The position numbers were made by a program, and so were the translations under genes. A stretch of 64,000 nt of DNA. It comes from Salinibacter grassmerensis (GTDB lineage Bacteria > Bacteroidota > Rhodothermia > Rhodothermales > Salinibacteraceae). Shown in pieces: positions 27,080 through 47,259 of the stretch. Numbering within the stretch: the first letter of the stretch is position 1; each line of letters opens with the position of its first letter. The stretch is from the NCBI RefSeq assembly GCF_947077765.1, contig NZ_CAMTTF010000002.1, positions 372,001-436,000 on the forward strand. The letters are read 5' to 3'. Under the pieces are notes generated by a model. That model saw nothing but the letters and a program-made list of their open reading frames with translations. It had not been told where the DNA came from and searched no databases.

Positions 27080-29215
27080 CTACTGGACGACGCCTTCCTG
27101 CTCGCCCGCACGGTACAGCTCATAGAGCCGGTCGATGCCGGCCGGATTGCCGATAATGGTCACGCGGTCCCCTTCCTCCAGGCGCGTGGTGCCGGAGGGC
27201 ACGGTAATCTGTCCGTCACGCCGCACAAGAGCCACCAGCACGCCCGCTGGTAGATTCAGGTCGGCCACGGTCCGGCCGATGAACTCGTCCGTGTTGGTCC
27301 CGGAAAGGAGGTTGAGCGTGAGGTAGCGCTCGTGGTGGAGCAGGCTCTCCTTGACCTCCTGCTCGTCGGTTGCCGCGCGCCACTCCACGAGAAATTGCTC
27401 CTCGTCGGTCCGGTTGGCGAGGGTGGCCAGCGTACGAAGGTGCTCGCCCTCGTCGTCCTTCGGGCTGACGAGGAAGAAGAAGGCGTACACCGGCTCGGAG
27501 CGGTCCAGCTCCTCGATCTCGTCCTCCAGGTCGACGCAGATTCCGGACTGGCAGTGTACCATCACCATCTTCGACTCGCTGATCCCGTCGAGGCGACAGT
27601 ACGGCAGGGCGGCCCCGTGAGAGACGGAAACGGCACTGTAAGGGGCTCCTTCCAAAAACCCATGTTCAAGGGTTGCGGTGGAGACGCCAAGCTCCTCAGC
27701 GAGTCGGTTCGACACGTCCTCCACCACGCCCGAGTAGGGGACCGGGTCGTCGAGGTGAATAACGTCCGACTCGGCCACGAGCCGGTCAAACTCGGTGTCG
27801 TGCCCCACGCCCTTCTCTTCGAGAATGGTCTGCAGCTCCCGGTCGAGGCCGTCGTAGCGCTGCTTGCCGAGGCGGGCAAAGAGGTGAAAGATCGCGCCCT
27901 CACGGGGGACGTCGGAGGCATAGTAGAAGTACCAGCCCACGCCGACGAGCACCACCGCGCCCGTGAAGAGGATGGCCAGCGTTCCCATCTCCGAGATGAG
28001 GAAGAAGGGAATGGCGATGCCCGCCACCTGCATCCACGGGTAGAACGGCGACCGGTAGCCCGGCGCATAGGACGGGATTTCGCTCTCCCGCATCACGATG
28101 ACCGCGAAGTTGAGGAGCGCAAAGATCAGGAGCTGGAATGCACTGGCCAGCTTGGCCACGCCCTGTTCAGAGAGCGCGAAGATAATGATGAGCATCAGCC
28201 CCACCGTCACCACGACCGAGCGGGTGGGCGTGTTGAAACGACCGATCCGGGCGAAGCCGTCGGGCAGCAGGCGATCGCGGGCCATGGCCAGTGGGTAGCG
28301 CGAGGCCGACATGATGCCGGCGTTGCCGGTGGAGGCGAACGCCGCGACGGCCGCGACGACGATCAGGATCGGCCCCAGGGTGTACGGGAGCCAGTTGAAG
28401 AAGACCTCACCGGAGGTGTACACGGGCGTCAGGTCGGCCTGAAGGTCCGTGGCCGGCAGGATGGCTACCATAATCGCCACGCCCACCACGTAAATGCCCG
28501 TGGCTGTGAGTAGCGACAGGCCCATGCCCAGGGGAATGTTGCGGTCCGGATTCTTGACCTCTTCGGCCACGCTGGCCACCTTCGTAAGGCCGGCGTACGA
28601 GACGAAGACGATCCCGATGGTGGCGAGAAAGCCGCGCGCCCCGTCCGTAAAGAAGGGCGTGAACTCGCCGGCCGCGCCGCCGACCGCACTCTGCCCGCCC
28701 CAGACCGACAGGACGCCCTGCGCGGCGTAGAACCCAAGCACGGCCACCAGTATTGTCACCAGCACCCGCTGCAGCAGGCTGCTTTCCTTGGCCCCAACCA
28801 CGTTGAGCACCCCGAAGGCCAGCGTGAGCGCCGCCGCCAGGGGCTTGATGGGCACGTCTGCGTAGATCGCAAGGTAGGCGCCCATTCCAATCAGGGCGAA
28901 CGCGCTCTTGAAGACGAGCGCGAGCCAGGTGCCCAGGCCGCCCACCGTGCCCGCGAGGGGGCCGAGGGCCCGGTCGAGAAAGTAGTACGTGCCCCCCGCC
29001 TTGGGCATGGCCGTGGACAGCTCCGCCATGCTGTACATGGATGGCAGGATGAGCAGGCCCGCCACCAGGTACGCGAGGATTACCGAAGGCCCCGTCTCCG
29101 CCGCCGCGATGCCGGGCAGCAGAAAGAACCCGGAGCTAAACATCGCCCCTGTACTGATCGAGTAGACGTCATAGAGAGACAGGGTTTTCTGAAGGTCCGA
29201 GGAGCCCGAAGCCAT
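27080..29215 (-). CDS. APC-superfamily permease fused to PTS EIIA-like and RCK_C domains
   Basis: A 711-residue fusion. Residues 1-435 form a 12-TM APC permease core (STGAMFSSGFFLLPGI, TM1 with the unwound Gly motif; MPKAGGTYYFLDRALGP; EEVKNPDRNIPLG). Residues about 455-628 match the fructose-type PTS EIIA fold: H533 in VSVSHGAALPYCRL aligns with the phosphorylatable His, and HL at 592-593 lies where EIIA has HLxxLA. Residues about 632-702 are an RCK_C (TrkA-C) domain (GRTVADLNLPAGVLVALVRR). The substrate may be amino acids or K+; the K+ island setting and RCK_C favour cation or counter-ion flux (inference). It follows the USP gene by 111 bp and is last in the trkA-trkH-usp direction. Confidence 0.9.
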   Translation of the reverse strand: MASGSSDLQKTLSLYDVYSISTGAMFSSGFFLLPGIAAAETGPSVILAYLVAGLLILPSMYSMAELSTAMPKAGGTYYFLDRALGPLAGTVGGLGTWLALVFKSAFALIGMGAYLAIYADVPIKPLAAALTLAFGVLNVVGAKESSLLQRVLVTILVAVLGFYAAQGVLSVWGGQSAVGGAAGEFTPFFTDGARGFLATIGIVFVSYAGLTKVASVAEEVKNPDRNIPLGMGLSLLTATGIYVVGVAIMVAILPATDLQADLTPVYTSGEVFFNWLPYTLGPILIVVAAVAAFASTGNAGIMSASRYPLAMARDRLLPDGFARIGRFNTPTRSVVVTVGLMLIIIFALSEQGVAKLASAFQLLIFALLNFAVIVMRESEIPSYAPGYRSPFYPWMQVAGIAIPFFLISEMGTLAILFTGAVVLVGVGWYFYYASDVPREGAIFHLFARLGKQRYDGLDRELQTILEEKGVGHDTEFDRLVAESDVIHLDDPVPYSGVVEDVSNRLAEELGVSTATLEHGFLEGAPYSAVSVSHGAALPYCRLDGISESKMVMVHCQSGICVDLEDEIEELDRSEPVYAFFFLVSPKDDEGEHLRTLATLANRTDEEQFLVEWRAATDEQEVKESLLHHERYLTLNLLSGTNTDEFIGRTVADLNLPAGVLVALVRRDGQITVPSGTTRLEEGDRVTIIGNPAGIDRLYELYRAGEQEGVVQ

Positions 29216-29326: not shown

Positions 29327-29812
29327 TCACGATCCCGCGATGGAGGCCCCGCCGAAGGCGCCCACAATGCGCTGCGGTTCCCGACGGCCCAGGAGGCGTG
29401 CTCGCCAGGCCTCGTCGCTCTCGACGACGACAAGGTCGGCGGAGCAGCAGTGGCGCGAGATCCAGTTCAGGTCGCGCTCGTCCAGCCAGGGTTGGTCGGC
29501 GAAGAGGGCCCGCCCCAGCACCAGAAGGGCCACCTCGTGGTGCCGGACAAAGTTGACCACCGCGAGGCGTGCGTCGTGGCTGACGACCCGCCCGTACTCG
29601 AACGGCCCGTCGACCGACGCCCCAAAGCGATCCATCCGGGTCTCGAAGTCTACGTCGTCCGGCGATTGCACCTCGGCGGTGGAGTCGAGCGGCAACTGGT
29701 CGAGCACCGCATCGAAGCACACCGGGACCTCGCCGCCGAGGCTGCTGCCCACGAACCACGCCGTGGCTGCCGGTAGCACCAGCACCCCGGCCACGGGAGG
29801 AACTGCACGCAT
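29327..29812 (-). CDS. Universal-stress-protein-like protein
   Basis: A 161-residue protein whose central part (VVSHDARLAVVNFVRHHEVALLVLG) reads like the C-terminal half of a USP domain, with a closing CSADLVVVE strand, but the ATP-binding G-2x-G-9x-G motif is not intact. The N-terminus (MRAVPPVAGVLVLPAATAWF) is hydrophobic and might be a membrane anchor or a poor first strand. It starts 40 bp after the trkH stop, and is thus probably co-transcribed with trkA and trkH. Confidence 0.6.
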   Translation of the reverse strand: MRAVPPVAGVLVLPAATAWFVGSSLGGEVPVCFDAVLDQLPLDSTAEVQSPDDVDFETRMDRFGASVDGPFEYGRVVSHDARLAVVNFVRHHEVALLVLGRALFADQPWLDERDLNWISRHCCSADLVVVESDEAWRARLLGRREPQRIVGAFGGASIAGS

Positions 29813-29851: not shown

Positions 29852-31351
29852 CTATCCGCGCCAGTAACTGGGACTCAGGACCACCAGGAACGTCATCACC
29901 TCCAGCCGGCCCGCCACCATGAGGAGGCACATGAAGAGCTTTGTCGGAACCGGCAGGGCCTCGAACCCGCCCATGGGCCCGACGGCGCCGAAGCCCGGGC
30001 CGATGTTGCCCAGCACCACCAGCGTGCCGGAAAAGGCCTCGTTCAGGGCAAGGTCGATCCCCACCCGGTGGGCATCCACGGCAATAAAGCCGGTGCCGCC
30101 GACCACCAGGAGGAGATACGTTAGGATCACGATGAGAATGCCCCGCACCACCGGCTCCTTCACCGCGCGGCGCCCCAGCCACATCGGGCGGACGGACGAC
30201 GGATGAATCATCTGGAAGAGTTCGCGGCCGATCACCTTGAAGCCGACGGTCCACCGCATGAGCTTGAGGCCGCCGGACGTGCTGCCGACACACCCGCTGG
30301 CAAACATGAGGAGGAGCAGGACCACGAGAATCTCCTCGCTCCATACCGCAAAGTCAGTGCTTGCGTAGCCCGTGGTGGTAAGCAGGGTTGCCGTCTGGAA
30401 GGTGCCGTGCCGGAGCGTTTCTTCGAGGCCCCCGAACTGTCCGTTGCTCCACAGCATGGTGCTCACCAGGAGGCTTCCGACGGCAAAGACCGAGAGGTAG
30501 ACCCGAAACTCCGCGTCGCGGGCGGGGGCCGTCGGGTCGGATATGATCGCCTGCCAGAGCAGCGTAAAATTCATCGCCGCCACGAACATGAACGGGATGA
30601 TGATCCACTGCACCGTGGGGGCGAAGGCCTCGACGCTCCGGGCCTGCGGCGAGAAGCCGCCGGAGGGAATCGTGGTAAAGACGTGTGCGAGGGCCTGGTA
30701 CGGCGTCATGCGGGGGGCGAGCCCGGCGTAGTGCACGGCGAGGAGCAGCGCCAGGAGCACCACCGAACACCCAATGTACAGCAGCCACAGGCGCCGGGCC
30801 GTCTCGGCGATGTGTGGGGTCAGCCGCTCTAGGCGCGGGCCGGGCACCTCCGCGTCAAGAAACTGGGCGCCCCCGGCCGACAGGCGTGGCAGAACGGCGA
30901 CCGCCAGCGCGAGAATGCCCATGCCGGCAATCCACTGCGTGAGCTGGCGCCACATCATGAGCGCCGCCCCGTGCTTCGCGATCGAGATGTCGAGCAGGAC
31001 CGTCGACCCGGTCGCCGAAAAGCCGCTGAAGCTCTCGAAGACGGCGTTGATGGGCGTGGCGAAGCTGCCCGTGCCGCTGAGGAGGTAGGGAATGCTCCCG
31101 AGGAGCGAGACCAGAATCCAGGTGAGGGTCACGAGCAGGAAGCCGTCCTGGACCGTGAGCTCGCTGTCGCCCCCAATCCATTCCGCGAGGGCGCCCGTTC
31201 CGAACGAGACCCCGAGCGGCACTAGGAAGGGCACCACGGTGGTGTCGTGGTACAGAGCCACGGCGACCGGCACCAGAAAAACAGCCGAGAACCATTTGAG
31301 GACCGGCCCCAACACACTGCTAACCCGACGGAGTCGACGACCTACAATCAT
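29852..31351 (-). CDS. trkH: Trk-type K+ uptake translocation subunit TrkH (copy 1)
   Basis: Membrane subunit of a Trk K+ uptake system, 499 residues. The four pore loops with selectivity-filter glycines are visible: FSATGST (about 112-118), TTIPSGGFSP, TTTGYASTDF and NIGPGFGAVGP. This pattern is TrkH-type rather than KtrB-type. Its start overlaps the stop of trkA in an ATGA, a sign of translational coupling of the pore with its NAD(H)/nucleotide-sensing partner. Confidence 0.95.
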   Translation of the reverse strand: MIVGRRLRRVSSVLGPVLKWFSAVFLVPVAVALYHDTTVVPFLVPLGVSFGTGALAEWIGGDSELTVQDGFLLVTLTWILVSLLGSIPYLLSGTGSFATPINAVFESFSGFSATGSTVLLDISIAKHGAALMMWRQLTQWIAGMGILALAVAVLPRLSAGGAQFLDAEVPGPRLERLTPHIAETARRLWLLYIGCSVVLLALLLAVHYAGLAPRMTPYQALAHVFTTIPSGGFSPQARSVEAFAPTVQWIIIPFMFVAAMNFTLLWQAIISDPTAPARDAEFRVYLSVFAVGSLLVSTMLWSNGQFGGLEETLRHGTFQTATLLTTTGYASTDFAVWSEEILVVLLLLMFASGCVGSTSGGLKLMRWTVGFKVIGRELFQMIHPSSVRPMWLGRRAVKEPVVRGILIVILTYLLLVVGGTGFIAVDAHRVGIDLALNEAFSGTLVVLGNIGPGFGAVGPMGGFEALPVPTKLFMCLLMVAGRLEVMTFLVVLSPSYWRG

Positions 31352-32688
31352 AATGCCTCCAACACTTCAGCCGAAACGTCGGTCTCGACGAACATCACGA
31401 GGTGATCCCGGGACTTCAGAACGGTCTGGCCCCGCGGGATGAGGACCTCCCCGTCCCGGATGACCGCCCCCAACACGAAGTTGTGGGGCACCGTCTCAAC
31501 CGCCTCCTCAATCGGGTGCCCCACGAGAGGGCTCTCCGCCGTGAGCTCCACCTCGACGACCTCTCCGCGATCGCGCTCGACGAACGTGATCTTCTCGATG
31601 CCGCGCACGCGAGTGTGCCGCAGGATTTCCTCGATGACTTCCCGGCGCGGGTTGACCGTGGTGTCGATGCCGCTGCTCGTGAAGACCGACTCATACACGT
31701 CGCGATGGACCACGGACAGCACCCGACCGGCCCCGAGGTCGCGGCTCAGGGTCGATGTGAGGAGGTTTCGCTCGTCGGGCGTGAGGGCCGAGACCACGAG
31801 GTCGGTGTCCGCCACCCCTTGCCGGCGCAAAAACTTCGGGTCTGTCGCGTCGTCCTGGAGGACGAGTGTGTCCGGCAGCTCCTGAGCCAAGGCGTGAGCC
31901 CGGTCGGGGTCTTTCTCGACGAGGCGCGGCTGAAGGCCGCGCTGTTCAAGCATCCGGGCCGTCTGGTACCCGATCTCGCCCCCGCCCAGAATCATGATCC
32001 GGCGTGCCGACTGCACGCTGGTCTTTGGGGTTAGGGTGCCTGCGAACTCCTCAACTTGGCGCGGCCGCCCAATTACCAGCAGGCGAATGCCGGGCCGGAG
32101 GCAGGTGGTCCCCCGTACAATCTCCATGTGCTCGTCGTCGAACACCGCCACGAAGTTGACCCCATCGGTGAGGCGAAGGTCCTCTACGGTTTTCCCGGCG
32201 ATCGGGCTCGCCTCCGGCACAGTGAATTCGGCCATGACGACCCGGCCCTGCCCGAAATGCTCGACGTTGCGGGCCGTAGGGAGCCCCACGACCTCGACAA
32301 TGTTGCGGGCCGTGAGGTGGTCGGCCCCCACCATGAAATCGACGTTGAAGGCCTCTCGAAGCTGCGACCAGGTGGCAAGGTACTCTGTTTCGGCCACACG
32401 GGCGATGGTGAAGGCGCCCCTGTTCATCGCGCGGGCCGTGCTGCAGATCAGGATGTTGCTCCGGTCGTCGCTCGTGCTCCCAATCACCAGATCGGCGTCC
32501 TGTACCTCCGCGGATTCGAGCACATCTACCCGAGCCCCATTGCCCTCGTACGTAAGTACATCGGTTTCAGACCGGATTTTCTCGAGGCGGTCGGCGTTCT
32601 TGTCGACCGCGATCACCTCGTGCTCTCCGGCCAGCGCGTGGGCCACGCTGCTACCAACCTGTCCGACGCCGATGACGACGACCTTCAT
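31348..32688 (-). CDS. trkA: Trk system regulatory NAD-binding protein TrkA (copy 1)
   Basis: Cytoplasmic gating subunit with two RCK units, 446 residues. The first Rossmann motif is GVGQVG near the N-terminus (VVVIGVGQVGSSVAHAL) and the second is GGGEIG in the middle; each is followed by a TrkA-C subdomain (for example AVFDDEHMEIVRGTTCL and VIRDGEVLIPRGQTVL). The start at 32688 is right before the Rossmann strand; the 43 codons upstream lack any family match. It is first in an operon with trkH and divergent from ktrB. Confidence 0.95.
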   Translation of the reverse strand: MKVVVIGVGQVGSSVAHALAGEHEVIAVDKNADRLEKIRSETDVLTYEGNGARVDVLESAEVQDADLVIGSTSDDRSNILICSTARAMNRGAFTIARVAETEYLATWSQLREAFNVDFMVGADHLTARNIVEVVGLPTARNVEHFGQGRVVMAEFTVPEASPIAGKTVEDLRLTDGVNFVAVFDDEHMEIVRGTTCLRPGIRLLVIGRPRQVEEFAGTLTPKTSVQSARRIMILGGGEIGYQTARMLEQRGLQPRLVEKDPDRAHALAQELPDTLVLQDDATDPKFLRRQGVADTDLVVSALTPDERNLLTSTLSRDLGAGRVLSVVHRDVYESVFTSSGIDTTVNPRREVIEEILRHTRVRGIEKITFVERDRGEVVEVELTAESPLVGHPIEEAVETVPHNFVLGAVIRDGEVLIPRGQTVLKSRDHLVMFVETDVSAEVLEAL

Positions 32689-32917
32689 GAGATGAGGGAA
32701 GGTCCTTCTTGAGAGTTTATTTGAGACCGGGACGTCACGCGGAAGAAGGGTCTGGGACGGCGGAGGTCCATGGTTTGTTTTTGGCGATTTATTTTTGGCC
32801 AGCTGAGGGCGCCCCAAATGTGACTACTAAGCAGAGCAATCGCAACAGTACGGTCGTCCTGCCCGTGGAGGCTCGCAGGCACCGTCCCCCACGAGAGAAT
32901 GGGGTTATGGCGAAGGG

Positions 32918-34465
32918 ATGACCAAAGACCGCCCGGACGCACATTGGATTTCCGTTGGCGCGTTCCCGAACTCTCACAGTCAGGGCGTGTTGTTCGGTCT
33001 CGAAGTACAGACCAAATCGTCAAGGTCGGTTCCACCTGTGAACACATCATACCAACAACAGCCTCCGTCCGGTCGCAGGGGCGTCCTGTGGCGGCTCTGG
33101 TCGTGGTGGCGGTCGCTGAGTCCGCCCCAGCTGTTCGTGGGGGCCTTCCTCACGCTGATTGTGGCGGGCACGGTCGGGTTCATGACCCTGCCGGGCCTCT
33201 ACACCGGGCCGCCACTGAACTGGGTCGACGCTCTTTTCACCGCCACGAGCGCGGTCTGTGTGACCGGGCTCATCGTGGTCGACACCGCCGAGTATTTTAC
33301 CACATGGGGCCAGGCCTACATCCTGCTGCTCATTCAACTTGGCGGGTTGGGCATTATCTCGTTCACGTCCGTCATCCTGGCCGCTCTCGGGCAGCGCCTG
33401 TCTCTGCGGCAGGAACAAATGGCCGTAAGCGGGGCGAATCTCGTGGACGACATCGATTACCGGGAGCTCACGTGGGCGATCCTCCGGTTCACGTTCGTGG
33501 CCGAGCTGGCCGGGGGCGTTCTCCTCTACGCGTCCTGGGTGCCCCGATTTGGGTGGGGCGGGGCCGTGTGGCACTCCGTCTTCCACACGGTGAGTGCGTT
33601 CTGCAACGCCGGGTTTTCGACGTTCACGACCTCGCTGGAGGCCTTCCAGGGCAATCTGCCGCTCCTGACGGCCGTGATGGGGCTCGTCGTGGTGGGCGGG
33701 CTCGGTTTTCTGACCCTGGAGGAGCTGAACGTGTGGCGGCGGACGCGCCGAGCCGAAGGCCGTTTCCGCCTGTCCGTGCACTCCCAGATCGTGCTGGGCA
33801 CCACGGCGTTTCTGATTGTGGCCGGCTGGGTGGCCTTTACGGCGTTCGAGTGGCACAACACGCTGGCGGGGATGTCCATCGGGGAGCGCCTCGTCAATGG
33901 CCTCTTCGCCAGCATTACCCCGCGCACCGCGGGGTTCAACACCATCGACTACGCGCAGGTGGAAACGGAGACGAATTTTCTCACGATCGTCTTTATGATG
34001 GTCGGCGGCTCGCCCGGCTCCACGGCGGGGGGCATCAAGACGACCACGTTTGCGCTGCTCGGCCTCCTGGCCTGGTCGCGCCTGCAGGGCAGCCCCACCA
34101 CGAGCGTCTCCGGCCGCACCATTCCGGAGGCAACCCTTCAGAAGGCCATGAGCCTCTTCGTCGTGGCCTTCGGCATCGTGACGGTCGGCATCTTCGTCTT
34201 CAGCGTGACCGAGTTCGGGAACGGCGTGGCGGCCTCGGCCGCCCCCTTCCTCAGCTACATGTTTGAAGCGTTCAGTGCCTTTAACACAGTGGGGCTCTCG
34301 ATGGGCGCCACGGGCGACTTGACCACGCCCGGGCGCCTCTGCACCATTGTTCTGATGTTCATCGGCCGCGTGGGTACACTCACGTTTGTGGCGGCGATGG
34401 CCCGCGAGCCGACACGCATTAAGGGCGGCTTCCGGTACGCCTACGAAGACGTGTCGATCGGGTAG
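32918..34465 (+). CDS. ktrB: KtrB/TrkH-family K+ translocator (copy 2)
   Basis: K+ channel-like transporter, 515 residues from ATG 32918. The TM part starts near residue 60, so translation from GTG at 33038 (VNTSYQQQ) would give a more normal length and is a serious alternative. Filters: TSAVCVTGL, FHTVSAFCNAGFS, SITPRTAGFNT and FSAFNTVGLSMG, the KtrB-type set. It is paired with the following single-RCK ktrA gene (38 bp apart), the arrangement of Na+-dependent Ktr systems. Confidence 0.93.
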   Translation: MTKDRPDAHWISVGAFPNSHSQGVLFGLEVQTKSSRSVPPVNTSYQQQPPSGRRGVLWRLWSWWRSLSPPQLFVGAFLTLIVAGTVGFMTLPGLYTGPPLNWVDALFTATSAVCVTGLIVVDTAEYFTTWGQAYILLLIQLGGLGIISFTSVILAALGQRLSLRQEQMAVSGANLVDDIDYRELTWAILRFTFVAELAGGVLLYASWVPRFGWGGAVWHSVFHTVSAFCNAGFSTFTTSLEAFQGNLPLLTAVMGLVVVGGLGFLTLEELNVWRRTRRAEGRFRLSVHSQIVLGTTAFLIVAGWVAFTAFEWHNTLAGMSIGERLVNGLFASITPRTAGFNTIDYAQVETETNFLTIVFMMVGGSPGSTAGGIKTTTFALLGLLAWSRLQGSPTTSVSGRTIPEATLQKAMSLFVVAFGIVTVGIFVFSVTEFGNGVAASAAPFLSYMFEAFSAFNTVGLSMGATGDLTTPGRLCTIVLMFIGRVGTLTFVAAMAREPTRIKGGFRYAYEDVSIG

Positions 34466-34503: not shown

Positions 34504-35184
34504 ATGCATCGATTTGTCATTGTAGGACTCGGCAACTTCGGGTCCAGCGTCGCGGAGGCGCTCTACAGTCACGGGCACGACGTTATTGCCGTGGACGTCG
34601 ACGAGCAGGCCGTGGACGACATTGCCCCCCATTGCTCCCGGGCGGCGGTGGGCGACGGGCGAGAGGCCGCCATGCTGGAGGAGATTGGGGCGGAGGACGC
34701 GGACGCCGCGGTCGTGAGCACCGGCGACGACATTACCGCGAGTATCCTGGCCACGATGGCGTTGCAGGATCTGGGCGTCGAGACCGTTTATGTGAAGGTC
34801 ATTTCGGACAACCACGCCCGCATTATGCGGCAGCTCGGCGCAACCGAGGCGGTCTTTCCCGAGCGTGACTCGGGCTTCAACCTGGCCAGTCGCATTTCGG
34901 AGAAGGGGGTCGTCAACTACGTGCGGATGGGGCGCAACCTGAGCATCCAAGAGTTGGTAGTGCCGGAGGAGTGGCGGGGCCACACGCTCCGCGAACTCAA
35001 TGTGCGGGCCGAGTACGACGTATCGGTCGTGGGCCTCCACGAGACGACGATTGACGATATGGTCGTCCCCCCCGATCCCGACGATACGCTTCAGCACACC
35101 GACACCCTCATTCTAGCGGGGACGGATGAGGCCATTGAGAAGGTCGCCGAACTGGCCAGTGCAACGGCGGAGGAGGCGGAATAG
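34504..35184 (+). CDS. ktrA: Ktr/Trk system RCK protein KtrA
   Basis: A 226-residue single-RCK gating protein. The Rossmann motif GLGNFG lies at residues 8-13 and the acidic strand end DVD follows; RCK_C occupies about 140-220 (VPEEWRGHTLREL, then DTLILAGTDEAIEKV). KtrA octamers gate KtrB in response to ATP/ADP and, in some lineages, c-di-AMP through RCK_C. It is directly behind ktrB, so the two form a complete Ktr system. Confidence 0.94.
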   Translation: MHRFVIVGLGNFGSSVAEALYSHGHDVIAVDVDEQAVDDIAPHCSRAAVGDGREAAMLEEIGAEDADAAVVSTGDDITASILATMALQDLGVETVYVKVISDNHARIMRQLGATEAVFPERDSGFNLASRISEKGVVNYVRMGRNLSIQELVVPEEWRGHTLRELNVRAEYDVSVVGLHETTIDDMVVPPDPDDTLQHTDTLILAGTDEAIEKVAELASATAEEAE

Positions 35185-35435: not shown

Positions 35436-37070
35436 ATGAACGACTGGCAGCGACGTGTTACGGGGACGATCGGCATTGTGGTGACGACGCTCCTGTCCTA
35501 CGCCCTCATCTACCAGTGGGGCATGCAGGCGTATGAGAACGAGTCGGTGCTCTACGTTCAGGCGCTACAGGTGGTGATTGAGGCGATCACCACGGCGGGG
35601 TTCGGGGGACATGCGCCCTGGTCCAGCCCGCAGATGAACGCAATGGTTCTCTTCATGAATCTGACGGGTGTGCTGTTTGTCTTTCTCGCCGTGCCCCTGT
35701 TTGCCGTCCCGGTGCTTCGAGACGCCTTCGAACAGCGTCCCCCGGAGTCTTTCTCAGGGGAGGGCCACATCGTGCTTGCGCCCCACACCTCGCGGGTGGA
35801 GGCCCTCATCGGTGAGCTCGAGGCACAGGACCGGCCGTACGTGATCCTCGAGCCGGATCGGGATCGGGCCAAGGCCCTCTACATGGACGGCTACCCGGTC
35901 GTCCACGGCGATCCGGAGTCGGTCTCCGCCCTCCGCGGGGTGGGCCTCGAGGCCGCCTCCGCACTGGTGGTCGACGGGCGGGACGAGGTGGACACGAGCG
36001 TGATCCTCTCGGCGCGCGAAATCAGCGACGAGATCAAAACCGTGGCCGTCATCGAAGACAGGGCGCTCGCACCCTACCACCGGATGGCCGGAACCGACCA
36101 CGTCCTCTCTCCACGCCAGCTGCTTGGCGAGGGGCTGGCCGGAGAAATTCCGTTTCTTCTCCGGATGGCCGAGGACGCAACGATCGGCATCGGGGAAGAC
36201 CTGGAGGTCGCCGAGCTCGACGTCGAGCCCGGAAGCCCGCTCTGTGACCAGACGATCGGGCACCTCCGGCTGCGCGAGCGCTTCGGAATTGACGTGATCG
36301 GGGCCTGGTTCGACGGCACGTTCGAGAGCCCCGTCGGTCCGGAGACGACTGTCGATTGTCGGGCGCGGCTTCTCGTGTCCGGGGCGCCCGAACGCATTCA
36401 GGCGCTGCGGCGTGAGGACAGCTCGACGCTTCAGATGCGGAAGCGCCAGCGGGTCATCGTCGTCGGGTACGGCCAATCCGGACAGGCGGCGGTCGACGTG
36501 CTCGCCGATACGGAAGCGCAGTTGACCATCATCGACGCGAAGGATCTCCCGAACGTCGATGTCGTGGGCGACGCGCGGGACCCCAGTGTGTATGAGGAGG
36601 CCGACGTGGGGGCCGCGGATGCCATTGTCATAGACCTTGATGACGACACGACGACACTGCTTGCGACGCTCATCGCGCGGGACGCCAATCCCGAGGCGCA
36701 CATTGTCGCCCGCGCAAACAAAGAGGAAAACGAGCGGAAGATCTATCGAGCCGGTGCGGACTACGTACAGTCACTCGCGACCATCAGCGGGCGCATGATG
36801 GCCGCGACCGTCCTCGACAGGGAAGAGGTGCTTTCGTTCCGGACGAAGATCGACGTGGTACGGTTTAAGGCGGAGGGGCTTGCCGGACGCACGCTCGCAG
36901 GGGCCGACGTTCGGGCCGAGACCGGCTGCACCGTGGTGGCGGCGGTCCGCAACGGCGATGTGGTCACGTCACTCGATCCGGAGGCGTTTACGTTTCGGGA
37001 CGACGACCAGCTCGTCGTGGTGGGCACCGACGAGGGAGTCCACCGCTTCGAAGACTCCTTCCTTCGGTAA
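35436..37070 (+). CDS. Two-TM K+-channel-like protein with two RCK domains
   Basis: A 544-residue protein with TM1 (about 10-28), a re-entrant loop (about 45-62), TM2 (about 70-93) and two cytoplasmic RCK units (about 108-325 and 340-544). The second has an intact GYGQSG motif; the first has lost the glycine pattern (VLAPHTSR). The pore loop reads TTAGFGGHAPW, a variation on TVGYGD, so ion selectivity may be altered. The gene lies 251 bp after ktrA and precedes an APC permease. Architecture is that of MthK or Kch-type ligand-gated channels but with both RCKs in one chain. Confidence 0.88.
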   Translation: MNDWQRRVTGTIGIVVTTLLSYALIYQWGMQAYENESVLYVQALQVVIEAITTAGFGGHAPWSSPQMNAMVLFMNLTGVLFVFLAVPLFAVPVLRDAFEQRPPESFSGEGHIVLAPHTSRVEALIGELEAQDRPYVILEPDRDRAKALYMDGYPVVHGDPESVSALRGVGLEAASALVVDGRDEVDTSVILSAREISDEIKTVAVIEDRALAPYHRMAGTDHVLSPRQLLGEGLAGEIPFLLRMAEDATIGIGEDLEVAELDVEPGSPLCDQTIGHLRLRERFGIDVIGAWFDGTFESPVGPETTVDCRARLLVSGAPERIQALRREDSSTLQMRKRQRVIVVGYGQSGQAAVDVLADTEAQLTIIDAKDLPNVDVVGDARDPSVYEEADVGAADAIVIDLDDDTTTLLATLIARDANPEAHIVARANKEENERKIYRAGADYVQSLATISGRMMAATVLDREEVLSFRTKIDVVRFKAEGLAGRTLAGADVRAETGCTVVAAVRNGDVVTSLDPEAFTFRDDDQLVVVGTDEGVHRFEDSFLR

Positions 37071-37440
37071 AGGGGCCGGCTACTCCCGAATGGGTGTCTG
37101 TGCGTTCTCTTGGGGTGTTTGGGGAGTGGCCCCGCGGATGCTTCGGAACGGGCGTAGTGTTGTCTCTCGCACTCCCTAACTCATCGACGACGGCCCCCGG
37201 ACGGACTGTGTCGAGGCCTGCGCCCACAAGACGATCCTGGAAGAAGGTGGCCGCAAGACCTCCTCCATTCTTCGCCGTCAACGATCGTTCGTGGGCAACG
37301 ACCGAGAGTTCGCGGGGGGGCTGGCCTCGGTGGTCACCGGAATGACGATCCCGTTACGGGCGCACGGTGTGCAGGCCAAACCGCTCCGGCGTGCCGCCGT
37401 TGGCCAAAGTCCATTCTACAGTGCAAAACAAGCATCAACC
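37071..37440. other. Intergenic region, no gene recognised
   Basis: About 370 bp between the channel gene and the APC permease. Open frames read Arg/Pro/Ser-rich and are not convincing. No hairpin with a T-run was found, so whether the downstream genes have their own promoter is unknown. Confidence 0.4.
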
Positions 37441-38802
37441 ATGGCCCAGGCAGGAGATCGATCTCCAGCCGCACGCCTCGGCCTCCTCGACGCCACCATG
37501 GTCGGCATGGGGGCAATGATCGGGGCCGGTATTTTCGTCCTCACGGGACTGGCCGCAGAGATTGCCGGCCCGGCGGCCATCCTGGTCTTTGCGCTCAACG
37601 GAGTCGTGACGGTGCTCACCGGCATCTCGTACGCGGAGCTTGCGAGTGCCATCCCGAAAAGCGGAGGCGGGTATGTGTTTGTGCGGGAGGTGTTTTCGGG
37701 GCCGACCTCCTTCCTCATGGGATGGATGCTGTCGTTCGCCTACATGATTGCGGGGGCGCTCTACGCGCTCGGGTTCTCGTCGAACTTCGTCGAGTTTGTC
37801 CACCTCTACTGGGCAGGCCTGCCCACCGGGCCGGTGTGGCACATCCTATACGCCCTGACGGTGGTGGGCCTCTTTGCCCTGCTCAACGCCGTCTCCACGG
37901 AGGCAAGTGGTGGGGCGGAGACCGTCGTCACGATCATCAAGATTATCATCCTGCTCATCTTCGCCGGGTTTGGCGCCTTTGCCGTGCAGGGCAGCAACTT
38001 TGAGCCGTTCTTCGCGAAGGAGGGCTCCTCCGTCGCGATACTGAAGGCGATGGGGCTCACGTTTATCGCCTTTGAGGGATACGACCTCATTGCCACCGTG
38101 ACCGAAGAGGTCGAAAACCCTCGGGAAAACATTCCGAAGGCCATCTTTATCAGCCTCATCGCGACCGTGGCCATTTACCTGATCGTCGTGTGGGTGGCCA
38201 TCGGCACGCTCGGGGCCGAGAAGCTTGGGCAGGCCGGCGAGACGGGCATTGCGGAGGCCGCGACGAGCTTCATGCCGACGATCCCGCTGCTGGGGGAGGG
38301 CGCCGCGCTCATCGTCTTCGGTGCCGTGTTTTCGACGGTGAGTGCCCTCAACGCCGTTGTCATTGCGTCCAGTCGGGTCGTATTCGCAATGGGGCGTGAG
38401 GACCAGCTCCCGAACCCCCTTGGCCAGATCAGCGCACGGTTCGGCACGCCCCTGGCGGCCGTCATGGTGAGCGCCGCCGTCATGCTTGGGAGCGTGGTTC
38501 TCCTGCCCATCGAGCAGGTCGGGCGCGTATCCAGTCTCTTCTTTCTCGTCTCGTTCGTGGTGGTCAACTGGAGCGTCATTCGCCTGCGCAACCGGCGCCC
38601 CAACATGCGCCGTCCCTTCGAGATGCCGTTCTACCCGGCCATCCCCCTCCTCGCCATCGCGTTGAACCTCGTGCTCGCCTATTTCCTGCTCCGCGACGAC
38701 CCGTACACGCTGGTGCTGGGGCTCGGGTGGATCGCCATCGGCGGTCTCGTGTACGCGGGACTGCAGTGGCGCCGATCGAGCCCGGAACCGGCCGAGGCGT
38801 GA
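37441..38802 (+). CDS. APC-superfamily permease
   Basis: Twelve-TM amino acid/polyamine/organocation permease, 453 residues from MAQAGD at 37441. Landmarks: MVGMGAMIGAGIFVLTGL (TM1 with Gly-rich unwound region), AIPKSGGGYVFVREVF and EEVENPRENIPKAI. It is a core permease with no additional cytosolic domain; the RCK protein encoded 37 bp downstream may serve it in trans. Amino acid transport is the default family role. Within a K+ island, K+ transport like the APC-type KimA is possible (inference). Confidence 0.92.
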   Translation: MAQAGDRSPAARLGLLDATMVGMGAMIGAGIFVLTGLAAEIAGPAAILVFALNGVVTVLTGISYAELASAIPKSGGGYVFVREVFSGPTSFLMGWMLSFAYMIAGALYALGFSSNFVEFVHLYWAGLPTGPVWHILYALTVVGLFALLNAVSTEASGGAETVVTIIKIIILLIFAGFGAFAVQGSNFEPFFAKEGSSVAILKAMGLTFIAFEGYDLIATVTEEVENPRENIPKAIFISLIATVAIYLIVVWVAIGTLGAEKLGQAGETGIAEAATSFMPTIPLLGEGAALIVFGAVFSTVSALNAVVIASSRVVFAMGREDQLPNPLGQISARFGTPLAAVMVSAAVMLGSVVLLPIEQVGRVSSLFFLVSFVVVNWSVIRLRNRRPNMRRPFEMPFYPAIPLLAIALNLVLAYFLLRDDPYTLVLGLGWIAIGGLVYAGLQWRRSSPEPAEA

Positions 38803-39528: not shown

Positions 39529-41019
39529 TCAGGAGGTCCAGTACGCCGGCGTGAGAAGGATCAGTACGGTGAAAATCTCTAGGCGCCCGGCCCACATGAG
39601 CAGCGCCAAGAGCACGGTGGTGGGGTTGGAATAGGCGAGGTAGTTTTCCATCGGCCCGATCTGGTGGAAGCCGGGCCCAATGTTGCCGATCGAGGCCGCG
39701 ACGGTGCTGAGCACGCTGAGCGTGTCGGTTTCGAGCCCGATCCGGACGTTTTCGGCCTCGATGACGGCGGTGCTCGTCAGCGTGAGGAAGAAGTAGGCGA
39801 CGATCATCAAGACGATCTGGCGGACGACGCGGTTCTCAACGACGTGCTGGCCCACGTGAATGGGGCGCACGGCGCTCGGGTGGATGCTCACGAAGAGCTC
39901 GCGGAGGACGGCCTTCGTGCTCACGATCCAGCGCATCACCTTGATGCCCCCGCCGGTGCTCCCCGTAGATCCCCCGATGAACATGGCCACGAACAGGACG
40001 GTGGTGGCGATGCCGAGCCACGTGTCGAAGTCGGTCGACGCGTAGCCGGTGGTTGTGATCATCGTGAGGGCCTGAAAGAGCGCGTGGCGGGCGGTCTCCT
40101 CGATGGAGCCGGTGGTCTGCTCGAAGACGAGCGCGGCGCTCAGAAGAAGCGTTACGGCCCCGATGGCGAGGGCGTACGTCCGAAACTCCTCGTCGGCCTG
40201 CGGGCGACGGACCGCACCGGTCACGACGCGCCACGTGAGGGCGAAGCTCGTGCCGGCCAGAAACATGAACGGAATGATGGTCCACTGCACGAGGGGCACG
40301 AAGGCCTCGATACTGCGCGCCTCCGGCGAAAAGCCGCCCGTGGGCATGGTTGTGAGGCCGTGGGCGACCGCGTTGTACAGCGTCATGTTGGGGGCCCAGC
40401 CGGCAAGGTGCCACCCGTAGAGCAGCACGATCTCCAGGACCGTCAGGCCCGCGTACAGGATCCAGAGCCGGCGGGCGGTGTCGGTGATGCGGGGGACGAG
40501 ACGGCTGAACCGGGGCCCGGGGGCCTCCGCTTCTAGCAGCTGGGCCCCGCCCACGGCGAGCCGGGGCAGGATGGCCACGGCGAGCACGATGATGCCCATC
40601 CCGCCGAGCCACTGCGTGAGCTGCCGCCACATCATGAGGGCGGGCGAATGGAAATCCACCGAGATGTTCTTCATAACGGTGGCGCCGGTGGTGGTGAACC
40701 CGCTCATGCTTTCGAAGAAGGCGTTCACCGGCATCGCCACGGTGCCGCGTCCGGCGAGCACATAAGGCATGGCCCCAACCAGGGCGGCCAGCAGCCACGT
40801 GAGGGCGACCAGCAGAAATCCCTCCCGCGTCCCGAGGTCCGGGTCGGACTTCAGTTGTTCGAGGGCCCATCCCCCGACCAGTGCAGCGCCCATGGTCGCC
40901 GCAAAGATGCCCAGATCCTGCCCGTCGACGAGGGCGATGAAGAGCGGCACCAGAAGGGGCACCGCGAGCCACTTTACGATGGTGCCGGCCAGGCTGGAGG
41001 CACTTCGCCAATCCGTCAT
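39529..41019 (-). CDS. trkH: Trk-type K+ uptake translocation subunit TrkH (copy 3)
   Basis: A 496-residue Trk pore protein. Filters: GFTTTGAT (about 107-114), TTMPTGGFSP, TTTGYASTDF and NIGPGFHQIGP. It is clearly a close paralogue of the copy at 29.9 kb, including the LMMWRQLTQW segment shared by both. It follows trkA copy 2 by 59 bp and converges on the RCK gene with 26 bp between stops. Confidence 0.95.
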   Translation of the reverse strand: MTDWRSASSLAGTIVKWLAVPLLVPLFIALVDGQDLGIFAATMGAALVGGWALEQLKSDPDLGTREGFLLVALTWLLAALVGAMPYVLAGRGTVAMPVNAFFESMSGFTTTGATVMKNISVDFHSPALMMWRQLTQWLGGMGIIVLAVAILPRLAVGGAQLLEAEAPGPRFSRLVPRITDTARRLWILYAGLTVLEIVLLYGWHLAGWAPNMTLYNAVAHGLTTMPTGGFSPEARSIEAFVPLVQWTIIPFMFLAGTSFALTWRVVTGAVRRPQADEEFRTYALAIGAVTLLLSAALVFEQTTGSIEETARHALFQALTMITTTGYASTDFDTWLGIATTVLFVAMFIGGSTGSTGGGIKVMRWIVSTKAVLRELFVSIHPSAVRPIHVGQHVVENRVVRQIVLMIVAYFFLTLTSTAVIEAENVRIGLETDTLSVLSTVAASIGNIGPGFHQIGPMENYLAYSNPTTVLLALLMWAGRLEIFTVLILLTPAYWTS

Positions 41020-41078
41020 ACGGTCAGAAACGCGGCAGAATCAGAGACGAACGGTCCAAATCAGAGTGGGAAACAACC

Positions 41079-42425
41079 TCAGAGCCCATCGGCGATGGCC
41101 TCGGCGTGCTCCGCCCGGGCAATCACGACGACCCGATCCCCCTCCCGAAGGTGTGTCTCGCCGCGGGGAACGAGGACCCGCCCCTGCCGCACGGCGGCCC
41201 CGACGACGCAGGGCCCTGGCAGGTCGGCGATGGCCTCTTCGATTCGGTGATCGGTGAGGCGTCCCTCCGCCGTCAGCGTCATCTCGAATACCTCGGCCCG
41301 CTCGTGTTCGATGCGGGCCACCGCGTCGGCGTAGCTCTCCTGCACGTGCTGGCTGACGTAGGCGGCCGTTTCCTCCCGTGGATGCACCACCCCGTCGAGG
41401 GCGCTCATCTCGCCGAGGTCGACGTACTGCTCCTCCCGGATCACCCCGAAGACGCGCGGCACGCCGAGCTGTTTGGCGAGCAGGCCGGCCAGCAGCACGC
41501 GCTCGTCGGGCTGGAGGGCCACGAGACAGAGATCCGACTGGTGGAGCCGCTCGGCCTCCCAGAAGGCGCGGTCGGTCGCGTCGGCCTGAAGGACCAGTGT
41601 CTCGGGGAGGGCCTCGGCAATGCGCTCGGCCCGAACGGGGTCCTGCTCCACGAGTTGCACGGAGAGCCCCCGCTGCCGGAGCAGGCGTGCGGCCTGTACC
41701 CCAATTTCGCCGCCGCCGAGAACCGCAATCCGACGAATGTCTTCGCCGGCCGTCGACGGGTTCAGTTGAACCCCGAAGGCCTTCACGTCGTCCGGATTGC
41801 CGACGGCGACGAGGCGGTCATTCGCCCGCAGACGGGTCGGTCCCTGAGGAATGATCATGTCCTCGTCGCGGAGGAGGATCGCGAAGGTGATGCCCCCGAA
41901 CCGATCGGCCTGCTCAACGGTCTCGCCCGCCAGCGGGCTGTTACGCTCCACTTCAAACTCTGCCATTTCGATGCGCCCATCGGCAAAAAAGCGCTCTTCG
42001 AACGCCGTCTCCTCAGCTGACTGGAACCCGACGAGACGCGCGATGGACCGGGCCGTTAGGGCCGAGCGCCCGACCATCAAATCGACGCCAAAGGCTTTCC
42101 GCGAGTGATGCCACGTGTCCAAGAACTGCGTATGGGCCACCCGCGCAATCGCAAAGGGATCGGCCTCCAGCTTGGCCGTGCTACAGGTCAGGATGTTGGT
42201 GCGGTCGTCGTCGGTGCAGGCGATGAGGACGTCCGCCTCATCGAGGCCTGCCTCCTGTAGGACGCCCAGTTGCACGCCGTCGCCCTGAACGACGCGGACG
42301 GTCCCGGGCATCTGTTCGAGGGCGTTGTAGCGCCGGTCGACGGCCGCGACGGTGTGATCGGGGGTCAGTTCCTGGGCGACGGTTTGTCCGACCTGCCCGG
42401 CCCCGACGATAAGAGTCTTCATCAA
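41079..42425 (-). CDS. trkA: Trk system regulatory protein TrkA (copy 2)
   Basis: Two-RCK gating subunit, 448 residues. GAGQVG at residues 8-13 and GGGEIG in the middle begin the two Rossmann units. The C-terminal RCK_C reads CVVGAAVRQGRVLVPRGETHL, only partly quoted. It closely matches the TrkA at 31.3 kb, so the trkA-trkH pair has been duplicated in inverted context. ATG codons at 42425 and 42422 both fit. It lies 66 bp after the USP gene. Confidence 0.95.
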   Translation of the reverse strand: MMKTLIVGAGQVGQTVAQELTPDHTVAAVDRRYNALEQMPGTVRVVQGDGVQLGVLQEAGLDEADVLIACTDDDRTNILTCSTAKLEADPFAIARVAHTQFLDTWHHSRKAFGVDLMVGRSALTARSIARLVGFQSAEETAFEERFFADGRIEMAEFEVERNSPLAGETVEQADRFGGITFAILLRDEDMIIPQGPTRLRANDRLVAVGNPDDVKAFGVQLNPSTAGEDIRRIAVLGGGEIGVQAARLLRQRGLSVQLVEQDPVRAERIAEALPETLVLQADATDRAFWEAERLHQSDLCLVALQPDERVLLAGLLAKQLGVPRVFGVIREEQYVDLGEMSALDGVVHPREETAAYVSQHVQESYADAVARIEHERAEVFEMTLTAEGRLTDHRIEEAIADLPGPCVVGAAVRQGRVLVPRGETHLREGDRVVVIARAEHAEAIADGL

Positions 42426-42491: not shown

Positions 42492-43259
42492 TCAGGCGGC
42501 CTGGGTGGCCCTTTCGGCGGCATCGACGTCTTCGTCTTCGTGGCGGACGACGATCACGGGAATGTTGACGCTCGTCACGATCCGCTCCGGCATCGTGCCG
42601 AGGAGAACCTCCCGCACCGACGGCTTGCTCTCGCCCAGGACGGCGAGGTCGTGCTCCCCGGCCCACTCGACGATGGTGTCGGCCGGGTCGTCGGCGGCGA
42701 TCGACTCAAGCTCGATCAGGCCGGCCTCAATGCCGTGATCGCGCATCATCTCTGCGGCCGGTTCGAGCACGTCCTCCCGCGAGGACGCGACCGTTTCCTC
42801 GTCCTCGAGAATGTGGAGGAGCGTCACGTCGGCCGTGCCGTCCTGACAGAGATCGGCGACGAAGGGCGCGATTTCCCGGACGTTCTGGATGCCGCGCAGC
42901 GGCACGAGGACGCGGCGCAGCTGCTCTACGGGGCCGGGGATCAGCACAGCGTCGCAGGACTCCTCCATGCTCACCCGACTCATGGTGTCGAGCTCATCGC
43001 CCGTAAACACGAGGCGCGTGGTGACGTCGGCCCCGGCCTCTTCAAACCGCCGGGCGGCCGCGTCGAGCATGTCCTCGGCCTCGGCGCCGAACTGGTCGCG
43101 GGCCTGGGCCGGGCTCGTCTGCTCCGGCACCGAAAACCACCCGAGGAGCACCACCCGGAGTGAGGACAAGACGCGGACGAGCGCTGACGGCAGCGGCTCG
43201 GGGTCCGGCAGCTCGATGTCGACGAGAATGGACGAGGGGGCCGAGGAGGAGTCCATCAT
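42492..43259 (-). CDS. Tandem universal stress protein (two USP domains)
   Basis: A 256-residue protein with two USP-like halves. The first (about 10-120) is divergent. The second (about 125-240) has the typical RVLVPLRGIQNVREIAPFVA beginning and a LGESKPSVREVLLGTMPERI segment near the ATP loop. Its start overlaps the stop of the upstream permease gene in an ATGA, so it is probably translationally coupled to that APC transporter. USP proteins often bind ATP or other nucleotides and regulate transporters. Confidence 0.88.
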   Translation of the reverse strand: MMDSSSAPSSILVDIELPDPEPLPSALVRVLSSLRVVLLGWFSVPEQTSPAQARDQFGAEAEDMLDAAARRFEEAGADVTTRLVFTGDELDTMSRVSMEESCDAVLIPGPVEQLRRVLVPLRGIQNVREIAPFVADLCQDGTADVTLLHILEDEETVASSREDVLEPAAEMMRDHGIEAGLIELESIAADDPADTIVEWAGEHDLAVLGESKPSVREVLLGTMPERIVTSVNIPVIVVRHEDEDVDAAERATQAA

Positions 43260-44617
43260 GACGTGATTTCGGAAATCGTGACGGTGCGTGCGTAGTAGAA
43301 GTACCATCCCGCGGTGGCGAGCAGGATCCCCCCGCCGATCACAATCGAAAGCAGATTCATGAAGGCCACGAGCCCGAAGCTGGTAAGGGCCCCAAGGAGG
43401 GGGACGACCGGGTAGCCGGGGCATCGGAAGGTCGGCTGGTACCCGTCGGGGGGCGACTGCCGAAGGACGAGAAGGGCCACGCAGATGAGGCCGTACATGA
43501 AGAGGTGCAGCAGCGAGGCCACCTCGGCCAGCACCTCGACGCGCCCGAAGAGGATGAGCGCCACGATGGGGCCGCCGGCGAGCAGGAGGGCGACGTGGGG
43601 CGTGCGGTACCGCGTGTTGATCCGCTCCACCTGAGGGGGCACGAGGTCGTCCCGACTCAGGGCGTAGATGGACCGGGAGGCGCTCAGGATCGACGCGTTG
43701 GCGCTGGAGAGTGTCGCGAGCAGCCCGCCCCCCAGCAGGGCGGCGGCGCCAAACGTGCCGGCGATGCTACGCCCCACGTTTACGACGGCCGTCTCGCCCA
43801 GCTCGGAAAGCTGGGTGCTGCCCAGCAGGCTGGTGCTAATAAAGATTGTAAGCACGTAGAGGGTCCCCACCAGCAGCACGCTTCCGATCATGGATCGGGG
43901 CAGGTTCCGGCTCGGCGACTTGATCTCCCCCGCCACGGTGGCGATCTGCACGAAGCCAAGATAGGAGGTAAAGACCAGCGCCGCGGTCGTAAAGACCGGC
44001 ATCGTGCCGTACGGGAAGAATGCCTCTGGGGTCTGTTGGCGCCCGAGGAATCCCATCGCGTCCAGCCCGCCGTGGCCGAGGAAGCCCGCGAGGATGGTCA
44101 GGAGGCTTCCCACGATCCAGTTCTGCAGGTCGCCCGTGTTCTCCGTGCCCGTGACGCTGATCCCTGTGAGAAGGATGGCCATGCCGAGGGCGAGCCCCAC
44201 GACCGAGACGGGCAGGCCGATCCCGAGCTCACGGACGAGATCCGACAGGTAGTGCCCGAAGCCCACCAGGTAGAACGCCGAGGCAAAGACGAGGCCCAGC
44301 CACTGCCCGATGCCCACCATGCAGCCGAGGAGGGTGCCGAGGGCGCGCGAGACGAAGAAATATCCGCCCCCACTTTCGGGCATGGCCGTGGCGAGCTCGG
44401 AGGTCGGCAGGGCCACGAGCAGGGCGATGACGGCCCCAATGGCGAACGAGAGCATGGCCGCGGGGCCGGCCTTGCCGGCCGCCAGCCCCGGGAAGACGAA
44501 GATGCCTGCTCCCACCATGGTCCCGGTGCCGATGGCCAGCGCCGGAAGAAGGCCGAGCGTCCGCTCAAGCTCTTGGGGGTCCGTCTCCGTCACGGAAGAA
44601 GAACTGGGTGTGCTCAT
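43256..44617 (-). CDS. APC-superfamily permease
   Basis: Twelve-TM APC permease, 453 residues from MSTPSSSS at 44617. TM1 contains GTGTMVGAGIFVFPGL, followed by AMPESGGGYFFVSRALG, GEIKSPSRNLPRSM and SANASILSASRSIYALSR. It has no fused regulatory domain, but the coupled USP gene (ATGA overlap) provides one in trans. Its TM segment AGGPIVALILFGRVEVLAE is strikingly similar to the decayed copy near 47.8 kb. Family substrate is amino acids; K+ or another cation is possible by context. Confidence 0.92.
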   Translation of the reverse strand: MSTPSSSSVTETDPQELERTLGLLPALAIGTGTMVGAGIFVFPGLAAGKAGPAAMLSFAIGAVIALLVALPTSELATAMPESGGGYFFVSRALGTLLGCMVGIGQWLGLVFASAFYLVGFGHYLSDLVRELGIGLPVSVVGLALGMAILLTGISVTGTENTGDLQNWIVGSLLTILAGFLGHGGLDAMGFLGRQQTPEAFFPYGTMPVFTTAALVFTSYLGFVQIATVAGEIKSPSRNLPRSMIGSVLLVGTLYVLTIFISTSLLGSTQLSELGETAVVNVGRSIAGTFGAAALLGGGLLATLSSANASILSASRSIYALSRDDLVPPQVERINTRYRTPHVALLLAGGPIVALILFGRVEVLAEVASLLHLFMYGLICVALLVLRQSPPDGYQPTFRCPGYPVVPLLGALTSFGLVAFMNLLSIVIGGGILLATAGWYFYYARTVTISEITS

Positions 44618-44705
44618 TCTACTTGCAATTGGGAGATATATACCTGAGCCGACGTGAAGTGCGCACCGGCGGAGAGTGGGCCTCGGTTCCCGGAGTAGGG
44701 ATGGG

Positions 44706-46976: not shown

Positions 46977-47259
46977 AGGTAGGGAAAAGAGATCGGGACG
47001 AAAATAGAGGCGAATGGCAGGGGAGAGCACAGACCAGATCACGGGTGTTCTCCCTCAGATCCAAGTCGTATGCTCGTCCGTGCCTCACGCTGGATGCGTC
47101 TCAGGGCCTGGAGACGACGGGGCCGTGGTGAGAGAAGGCGACTGGAAAACGGACGATGTGCCGAAAACGGCACGGGCCCACTCGAACACGGAAGCGTCTC
47201 CAGACAGAAATTTTAGGGCCCGAGTTGTGACCATTAACAACGCATGAGTGTGGTCGCGG

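Follow-up and report, generated by a model that had tools for sequence, protein, structure and literature searches.

Can a single polypeptide join a membrane transporter to a domain of the bacterial phosphotransferase system (PTS) and to an RCK_C domain, and which of the two cytoplasmic domains would then carry the regulatory signal? The question is raised by an open reading frame (ORF) of Salinibacter grassmerensis at 27080..29215 on the minus strand of a 64,000-nucleotide stretch of contig NZ_CAMTTF010000002.1 (positions 372,001 to 436,000; hereafter the window), which starts with ATG, encodes 711 amino acids and is supported by the ORF list, Pfam domains and full-length relatives. An original prediction, made from the DNA letters of the window, had described the product as a fusion of an APC permease, an EIIA-like domain and an RCK_C domain, possibly regulated through phosphorylation of a conserved His533. 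On balance we favour a modified account: an APC transporter with a two-part regulatory tail, whose EIIA domain would be open to PTS phosphorylation in the family at large and, in the lineage of the window, would be a pseudo-EIIA locked in a state resembling the unphosphorylated one.

A permease with a two-part cytoplasmic tail

The three predicted domains were all recovered in one chain, each over its curated Pfam cut-off, in a scan that listed seven families at E<=1. The transmembrane domain (residues 12-433; 27917..29182, minus strand) is CAT/GkApcT-like by Pfam, PDB sequence matches, the alignment and the full-length model, and matched AA_permease (residues 17-415, 158.5 bits against a cut-off of 24.6) as well as AA_permease_2 (residues 12-427, 149.3 against 27). 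It is followed by an EIIA-Ntr-like domain, to which we assigned residues 482-626 (27338..27772, minus strand) on the strength of Pfam, a phmmer match to 1a6j, the structural model and a fold search, the PTS_EIIA_2 match itself spanning residues 498-625 with 42.2 bits (cut-off 27). The chain ends in an RCK_C/TrkA_C domain, set by us at residues 628-702 (27110..27334, minus strand), within which TrkA_C matched residues 642-700 with 65.3 bits (cut-off 27). NCBIfam transporter models scored far under their cut-offs, the best being TIGR00909 (191.4 against 556.8 bits). Because this domain order is kept at full length across many loci, the triple fusion is real and not an artefact of assembly or chance.

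The predicted structure of the tail supports the same assignments. A model of residues 436-711 (AlphaFold2, built on 49 family sequences) had a mean predicted local distance difference test score of 80.9, and the full-length model one of 79.7. The top fold matches of the tail were EIIA-Ntr proteins, namely 2a0j (Z 15.8, 146 residues aligned, 2.3 Å) and 1a6j (Z 15.5, 149 residues, 2.5 Å), with the EIIA-Ntr entries 3urr (Z 15.1) and 4gqx (Z 14.8) next; other EIIA chains and scaffolds reached Z 11-12, and SLC4 cytoplasmic domains Z about 10-12. Structure prediction thus bears out the EIIA-like nature of the middle domain. For the RCK_C part, the fold matches were 3jxo and the RCK chains 5f29 and 4ys2, both titled as holding CDA, and 3jxo was also its PDB sequence match.

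We found the same architecture well beyond Salinibacter. A search of 395 genomes of a phylum sample with residues 438-711 (E<=1e-10) gave tail matches in 77, antiporter-length frames included. The complete triple fusion is encoded at all 30 best-match loci of this sample, the window being one of the 30; 20 further regions picked lower in the list yielded the fusion in 16 (21 copies) and antiporter-like proteins in the other 4. Scanning named genomes with patterns from the membrane part returned at least 563 stretches encoding some relative, other APC permeases possibly among them; we retained the 80 best loci. Within these best 80, at least one full-length fusion was present at 77 (81 copies), the record titles name Bacteroidota, Gemmatimonadota, Planctomycetota, Calditrichota, SAR324, Deltaproteobacteria, Hellea and others, and the closest named relative was an uncultured Rhodothermaceae metagenome-assembled genome (MAG; L087, 77% identity). 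Two loci gave partial matches only (L147 and L153, to residues 622 and 629), and viral contigs a single partial APC-like match, to query residues 7-79. At a further locus (L162, a Deltaproteobacteria MAG) the permease half and the EIIA-RCK_C half share a reading frame that is interrupted by one stop codon; the locus may hold two separate genes or a fusion that has split, or the sequence may contain an error.

The tail is not confined to APC permeases. One ORF (L063:1118-3703, plus strand) carries Na_H_Exchanger, TrkA_N, PTS_EIIA_2 and TrkA_C in one chain by domain scan, with the acceptor His intact; a second (L062), judged by sequence, resembles it and also keeps this His, and two antiporter-like ORFs (L064, L065) were recognised by sequence as bearing the EIIA tail. 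Since it is found on antiporters too, the EIIA-RCK_C tail appears to be a portable regulatory module.

The phospho-acceptor position

EIIA-Ntr is phosphorylated at His73 (excerpted text of PMC5024086). When the fusion was aligned with E. coli PtsN by phmmer (1a6j, E 0.00026), the segment holding this residue, giaiPHgk, paired with gaalPYcr of the fusion, in the G534-Y539 region. The PtsN alignment, the family alignment and a codon comparison place the acceptor site at residue 539, which is a tyrosine (codon TAC, 27599..27601, minus strand); two sister-clade genes have CAC here, with the context GAALPHQRL as against GAALPYCRL. The second active-site histidine is present, His592 (codon 27440..27442, minus strand) aligning with His120 of PtsN in the PtsN and family alignments. 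With Tyr539 as the acceptor residue, PTS phosphorylation at the canonical site would therefore not be expected in this protein.

These alignments also make the regulation of the permease through phosphorylation of His533 (codon 27617..27619, minus strand) very improbable. Residue 533 lies six residues upstream of the acceptor column and pairs with an Asn of PtsN, not with His73. Nor is it conserved as had been claimed: among the 132 full-length rows of our family alignment (query included; 128 distinct in the permease part, with some genomes entering twice via two collections), it is His in 46 and otherwise Arg, Glu, Pro, Asn, Gln or others. What speaks for this residue is that all ten rows of the window's own clade keep it, that His592 is retained and that the genome encodes EI, HPr and HprK; the PtsN alignment and the poor conservation across the family led us to rule it out as the phospho-site.

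The acceptor column itself is far less variable. Position 539 is His in 101 of the 132 rows, Tyr in 26, Phe in 4 and Leu in 1, position 592 is His in 115, Gln in 11 and Asp in 6, and 98 rows have both histidines. For these 98 double-His rows, PTS control of the fused transporter, as originally predicted, survives as a candidate, but it does not for the window's own protein with its Tyr539.

To place these changes we used a maximum-likelihood tree of the permease part (of the quick type, with single support values), from which counts of changes can be taken independently of the root. At least four changes occurred at position 539, and the acceptor His is missing in three clades, in which 31 of 34 rows have Tyr, Phe or Leu. 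The clade of the window comprises ten rows on a starred branch, all with Tyr539 and His592; the seven rows placed beside it, with supports of 83 and 92 and not starred, all have His539. Balneolia, Hellea and a Bdellovibrionales MAG form the second clade (13 rows, with Tyr, Phe or Leu at 539). The third consists of 11 Bacteroidia rows, all with Gln592, of which 8 have Tyr or Phe at 539 and 3 have His. By analogy with the role of this His in EIIA domains at large, His539 would be the older state and Tyr or Phe the derived one.

Loss of the acceptor has not been followed by decay of the domain. Comparing the query with same-genus genomes (four pairs), we obtained ratios of non-synonymous to synonymous substitution (dN/dS) of 0.05-0.12 for the EIIA part, 0.055-0.073 for the permease and 0.037-0.133 for RCK_C, some of the underlying synonymous distances being near saturation. 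Mean pairwise identity in the window's clade is 0.67 in the EIIA part versus 0.84 in the permease, and 0.59 versus 0.78 in six His-type sister rows. Because its dN/dS is 0.05-0.12, we conclude from these coding sequences that the EIIA domain is under purifying selection and is being retained although its acceptor is lost.

In another reading the tail would serve assembly or stability alone, EIIA and RCK_C holding oligomers together and passing no signal. RCK_C domains are dimerisation domains, and 8 of the 11 rows of the Bacteroidia clade retain the tail although they lack the two EIIA histidines, in line with such a role. However, 98 of 132 rows keep both histidines, and Arg666 and Asp683 of RCK_C are identical in 132/132, which is more than assembly would be expected to need; we hold a purely structural tail to be decidedly improbable.

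We instead picture the cytoplasmic tail as a regulatory module of two parts, EIIA-Ntr-like first and RCK_C second, whose regulatory action and its direction we infer. In the window's lineage, the Tyr at the acceptor position would leave no phosphate at the canonical site, and the resulting pseudo-EIIA would stay in an unphosphorylated-like form. Control of the transporter would then fall to the ligand of RCK_C and to contacts of the EIIA surface. As the phosphate input would be lost at the canonical site, RCK_C would be the likelier signal input in this protein.

Cyclic di-AMP (c-di-AMP) was considered as that ligand, and a diadenylate cyclase is encoded in the same genome. The conserved residues of the RCK_C part are those common to TrkA_C domains generally and are therefore uninformative on the ligand, so that a c-di-AMP site could not be read from conservation. 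Not every RCK_C domain responds to this nucleotide: the isolated RCK_C of EriC gave no c-di-AMP signal, according to the portion of PMC5919688 available.

Phosphoryl donors and the case for PTS control

If the EIIA domains of the family are PTS targets, donors should accompany them. Lack of a PTS donor, the finding that the original prediction had named as telling against it, can be ruled out, as the pair it had suggested looking for is present: the genome encodes one EI and one HPr, adjacent at C4:131700-132443, together with one HPr kinase (HprK) over the cut-off. It has two PTS_EIIA_2 domains in all, one in this fusion and the other in a free-standing PtsN-like protein whose LPHAK motif is intact. 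PTS_EIIC (PF02378), the sole EIIC family searched, had no match in the genome, and a purely regulatory PTS would fit this result.

The coexistence of the fusion with a free, PHAK-intact PtsN-like protein also suggests another arrangement, in which the EIIA domain would be a docking surface for HPr or for free PtsN, a protein that reports PTS flux through its own state; transport would then be set by the partner and not by a phosphate on the permease. Retention of His592 and the constraint on the EIIA domain would suit such a surface. Two Balneolia loci (L048, L103) carry side-by-side copies, one of the His type and one of the Tyr/Phe type, which would permit mixed oligomers; the remaining six of the eight multi-copy loci, however, are not mixed in this way. 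The EIIA domain is moreover kept in Bacteroidia genomes where EI and HPr were not found, and we regard docking as unlikely.

For the family at large we favour direct phosphorylation, in which phosphate would pass from phosphoenolpyruvate to EI, to HPr and on to His539, making the EIIA domain probably a phosphorylatable PTS sensor. Its phosphorylation state would alter the action of the tail on the permease, a one-chain counterpart of the action of PtsN on E. coli K+ transporters. The E. coli K+/H+ antiporter YcgO, which has RCK and CorC domains in its tail, is bound by PtsN in its unphosphorylated form and thereby inhibited (PMC11808508, in its excerpted text).

The distribution of donors gives this scheme limited help. 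EI was found in 72 of the 77 phylum-sample genomes with a tail match, and the five without it (G058, G167, G215, G246, G270) contain only antiporter-length frames of 769-889 amino acids. For the named genomes, EI was searched in 50 of the 80 loci, comprising 16 with a non-His copy (L103, which also has a double-His copy, was counted as non-His) and 34 chosen by us. It was found at 29 of 31 double-His loci, at none of 11 Gln592 loci and at 7 of 8 others, many of the genomes being draft MAGs in which absence of EI is uncertain; a search for HPr likewise gave nothing in the 11 Gln592 genomes. On raw counts the association of double-His with EI is strong (Fisher p 2.6e-5), and the distribution of EI and HPr agrees with a role of the double-His members in the PTS, though not significantly once kinship is counted.

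Several observations weigh against PTS control in the family. EI is also present in 278 of the 395 phylum-sample genomes overall, so its co-occurrence with the tail is weak evidence. Placed on the tree, the relation between His and EI comes down to three independent EI differences, about one of them informative, and His follows EI in about one (sign test p 1). EI went undetected in the genomes of two double-His loci (L107, L124), and two antiporter-EIIA proteins (L064 in G058, L065 in G215) keep the acceptor His in genomes where EI was not detected. The contact of PtsN on YcgO has been placed in CorC and not in RCK, as far as the consulted part of PMC11808508 goes, and the fusion has no Pfam match to CorC. 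We found no transport, phosphorylation or binding data for any member of the family.

Physical linkage to EI was a further candidate line of evidence, to which we gave little weight. Among 65 genomes carrying an APC fusion, a set that omits one genome with a 158-residue fragment only (G385) and 11 with antiporter-length frames, 25 have EI no further than 30 kb from the fusion. Family f16 contributes 23 of these and family f5 the other 2; gene order is common within the family at the seven f16 loci and two f5 genomes inspected, and the typed genes between EI and the fusion are unrelated (GatC, YfhO and HisRS; polyprenyl synthase and adenylate kinase). This proximity is not seen in the window's own lineage.

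Substrate, neighbourhood and related systems

What does the permease carry? In the PDB, the membrane part is matched best in sequence by the cationic amino acid transporters and GkApcT, namely CAT4 (9sqh, 1.2e-29), 6f34 (4.5e-25) and 5oqt (1.1e-24), with AdiC and ApcT also among the better matches and K-Cl cotransporters weaker. The fusion is an APC-superfamily secondary transporter, and by these likenesses its substrate is probably an amino acid. It differs from GkApcT/CAT-type transporters in two family-specific features of the membrane domain, Lys103 in the third transmembrane helix (TM3), identical in 132/132 rows, and a GLTK-like motif in TM6 (query residues 209-212) that marks the fusion family; four aligned APC/CCC paralogues of the window have other residues at both sites. 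The invariant lysine and the motif may point to an unusual substrate or coupling. A further difference is the tail, whose two pieces had no APC chains among their PDB sequence matches.

The surroundings of the gene bring potassium into view. Beside the fusion lie genes for TrkH (29852-31351), TrkA (31348-32817), a second TrkH (32918-34465), TrkA_N/TrkA_C proteins (34504-35184 and 35436-37070) and a further TrkH and TrkA (39529-42425), the three TrkH genes marking a potassium-transport neighbourhood. A CCC-type transporter (47931-50297) and an Na+/H+ exchanger with TrkA_N (50482-52455) follow, and this neighbourhood supports the K+ link drawn by the original prediction. RCK_C and PtsN typically partner K+ transporters, and the unusual Lys103 and TM6 motif could likewise belong to an APC-fold potassium transporter carrying K+, or K+ with an amino acid. 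The PDB matches just described favour amino acid transporters over K-Cl cotransporters, and neither a KUP membrane profile nor the KUP/KimA family is among the seven Pfam families; a potassium substrate thus seems to us improbable.

Other neighbours in the window are APC permeases (37291-38802 and 43256-44791), a Glu/Leu/Phe/Val-type dehydrogenase (52744-54276) and, between the fusion and the first TrkH, a 161-residue ORF without a Pfam match at E<=1 (29327-29812, minus strand). A Usp protein also lies nearby, and the cluster holds a second permease-regulator fusion, an APC permease with a C-terminal Usp region in two matched stretches (44706-47042, minus strand). Clustering the genes around the fusion in 97 loci, with flanks reaching at most about 18 kb, and in the window, 98 sources in all, revealed no common partner. 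One cluster with 14 sources is probably an Na+/H+ exchanger, which the window places some 21 kb away from the fusion; the other large clusters, for each of which a single member was judged, overlap the fusion gene or are confined to one clade. A hypersalinity island common to Salinibacter ruber and haloarchaea is cited in PMC5624296 (excerpt), and we do not equate it with the cluster described here. Elsewhere in the window, ARAGORN gave a single tRNA-like match with a four-base anticodon (11133-11212, plus strand), which is probably spurious.

Serine phosphorylation of the KdpFABC pump is reportedly documented, to go by the title of Sweet et al. 2020. That makes it too strong to call LacS the sole bacterial transporter under direct-phosphorylation control, as a 2023 review does (PMC10710835, available excerpt). 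LacS, the GPH permease of streptococci and lactobacilli with an HPr-phosphorylated EIIA-Glc-like domain, nevertheless resembles the fusion in joining a secondary transporter and an EIIA domain in one chain that is in principle an HPr target. The fusion differs in having another permease superfamily, an EIIA of the mannitol/fructose/Ntr type, an extra RCK_C domain and Tyr for the acceptor His, and neither the GPH membrane profile nor the EIIA-Glc profile is among its seven Pfam families.

The action of PtsN on YcgO, TrkA and KdpD in E. coli shares with the fusion the EIIA-Ntr fold and the K+ setting (PMC11808508 and PMC13104625, both in excerpt), and the partner YcgO carries an RCK_C domain, as the fusion does (same excerpt of PMC11808508). 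PtsN and YcgO are separate proteins with a CPA1 permease and a CorC contact, whereas the fusion is one chain with an APC permease and without CorC; in L063, and by sequence in L062, the same EIIA-RCK_C module is fused to an antiporter, unlike the separate PtsN and YcgO. An EIIA-like domain inside a transporter has also been noted in print for SLC4 exchangers (PMC4664831, as excerpted). SLC4 proteins such as band 3 and AE2 are eukaryotic, have this domain at the N-terminus and belong to another membrane family, and their likeness to the fusion is one of fold (Z about 10-12); they show that an EIIA-like domain can belong to a transporter without any PTS being involved. Among the open-licence papers listed in our searches, we found no title or abstract opening that describes the permease-EIIA-RCK_C fusion.

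Seen against these systems, the family looks like the LacS and PtsN/YcgO ideas joined in one chain. More tentatively, and with considerable doubt, we raise the possibility of a far wider second class of directly PTS-phosphorylated transporters, made up of APC permeases and some antiporters. One chain would here bring together, through a fused EIIA-Ntr domain, the PEP/PTS state and a nucleotide signal at RCK_C, and entire clades, that of the window included, would have been converted to a fixed pseudo-EIIA by a change of His to Tyr or Phe. Direct PTS phosphorylation of a non-PTS transporter has been described for LacS, and the fusion family, which by record titles spans several phyla, is a candidate class for it. 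Its members differ at the acceptor site, where some have His and others Tyr, and so offer matched natural variants, and the fusion provides a one-chain version of the link between PtsN and K+ transporters, for which the models in E. coli disagree (excerpted text of PMC13104625).

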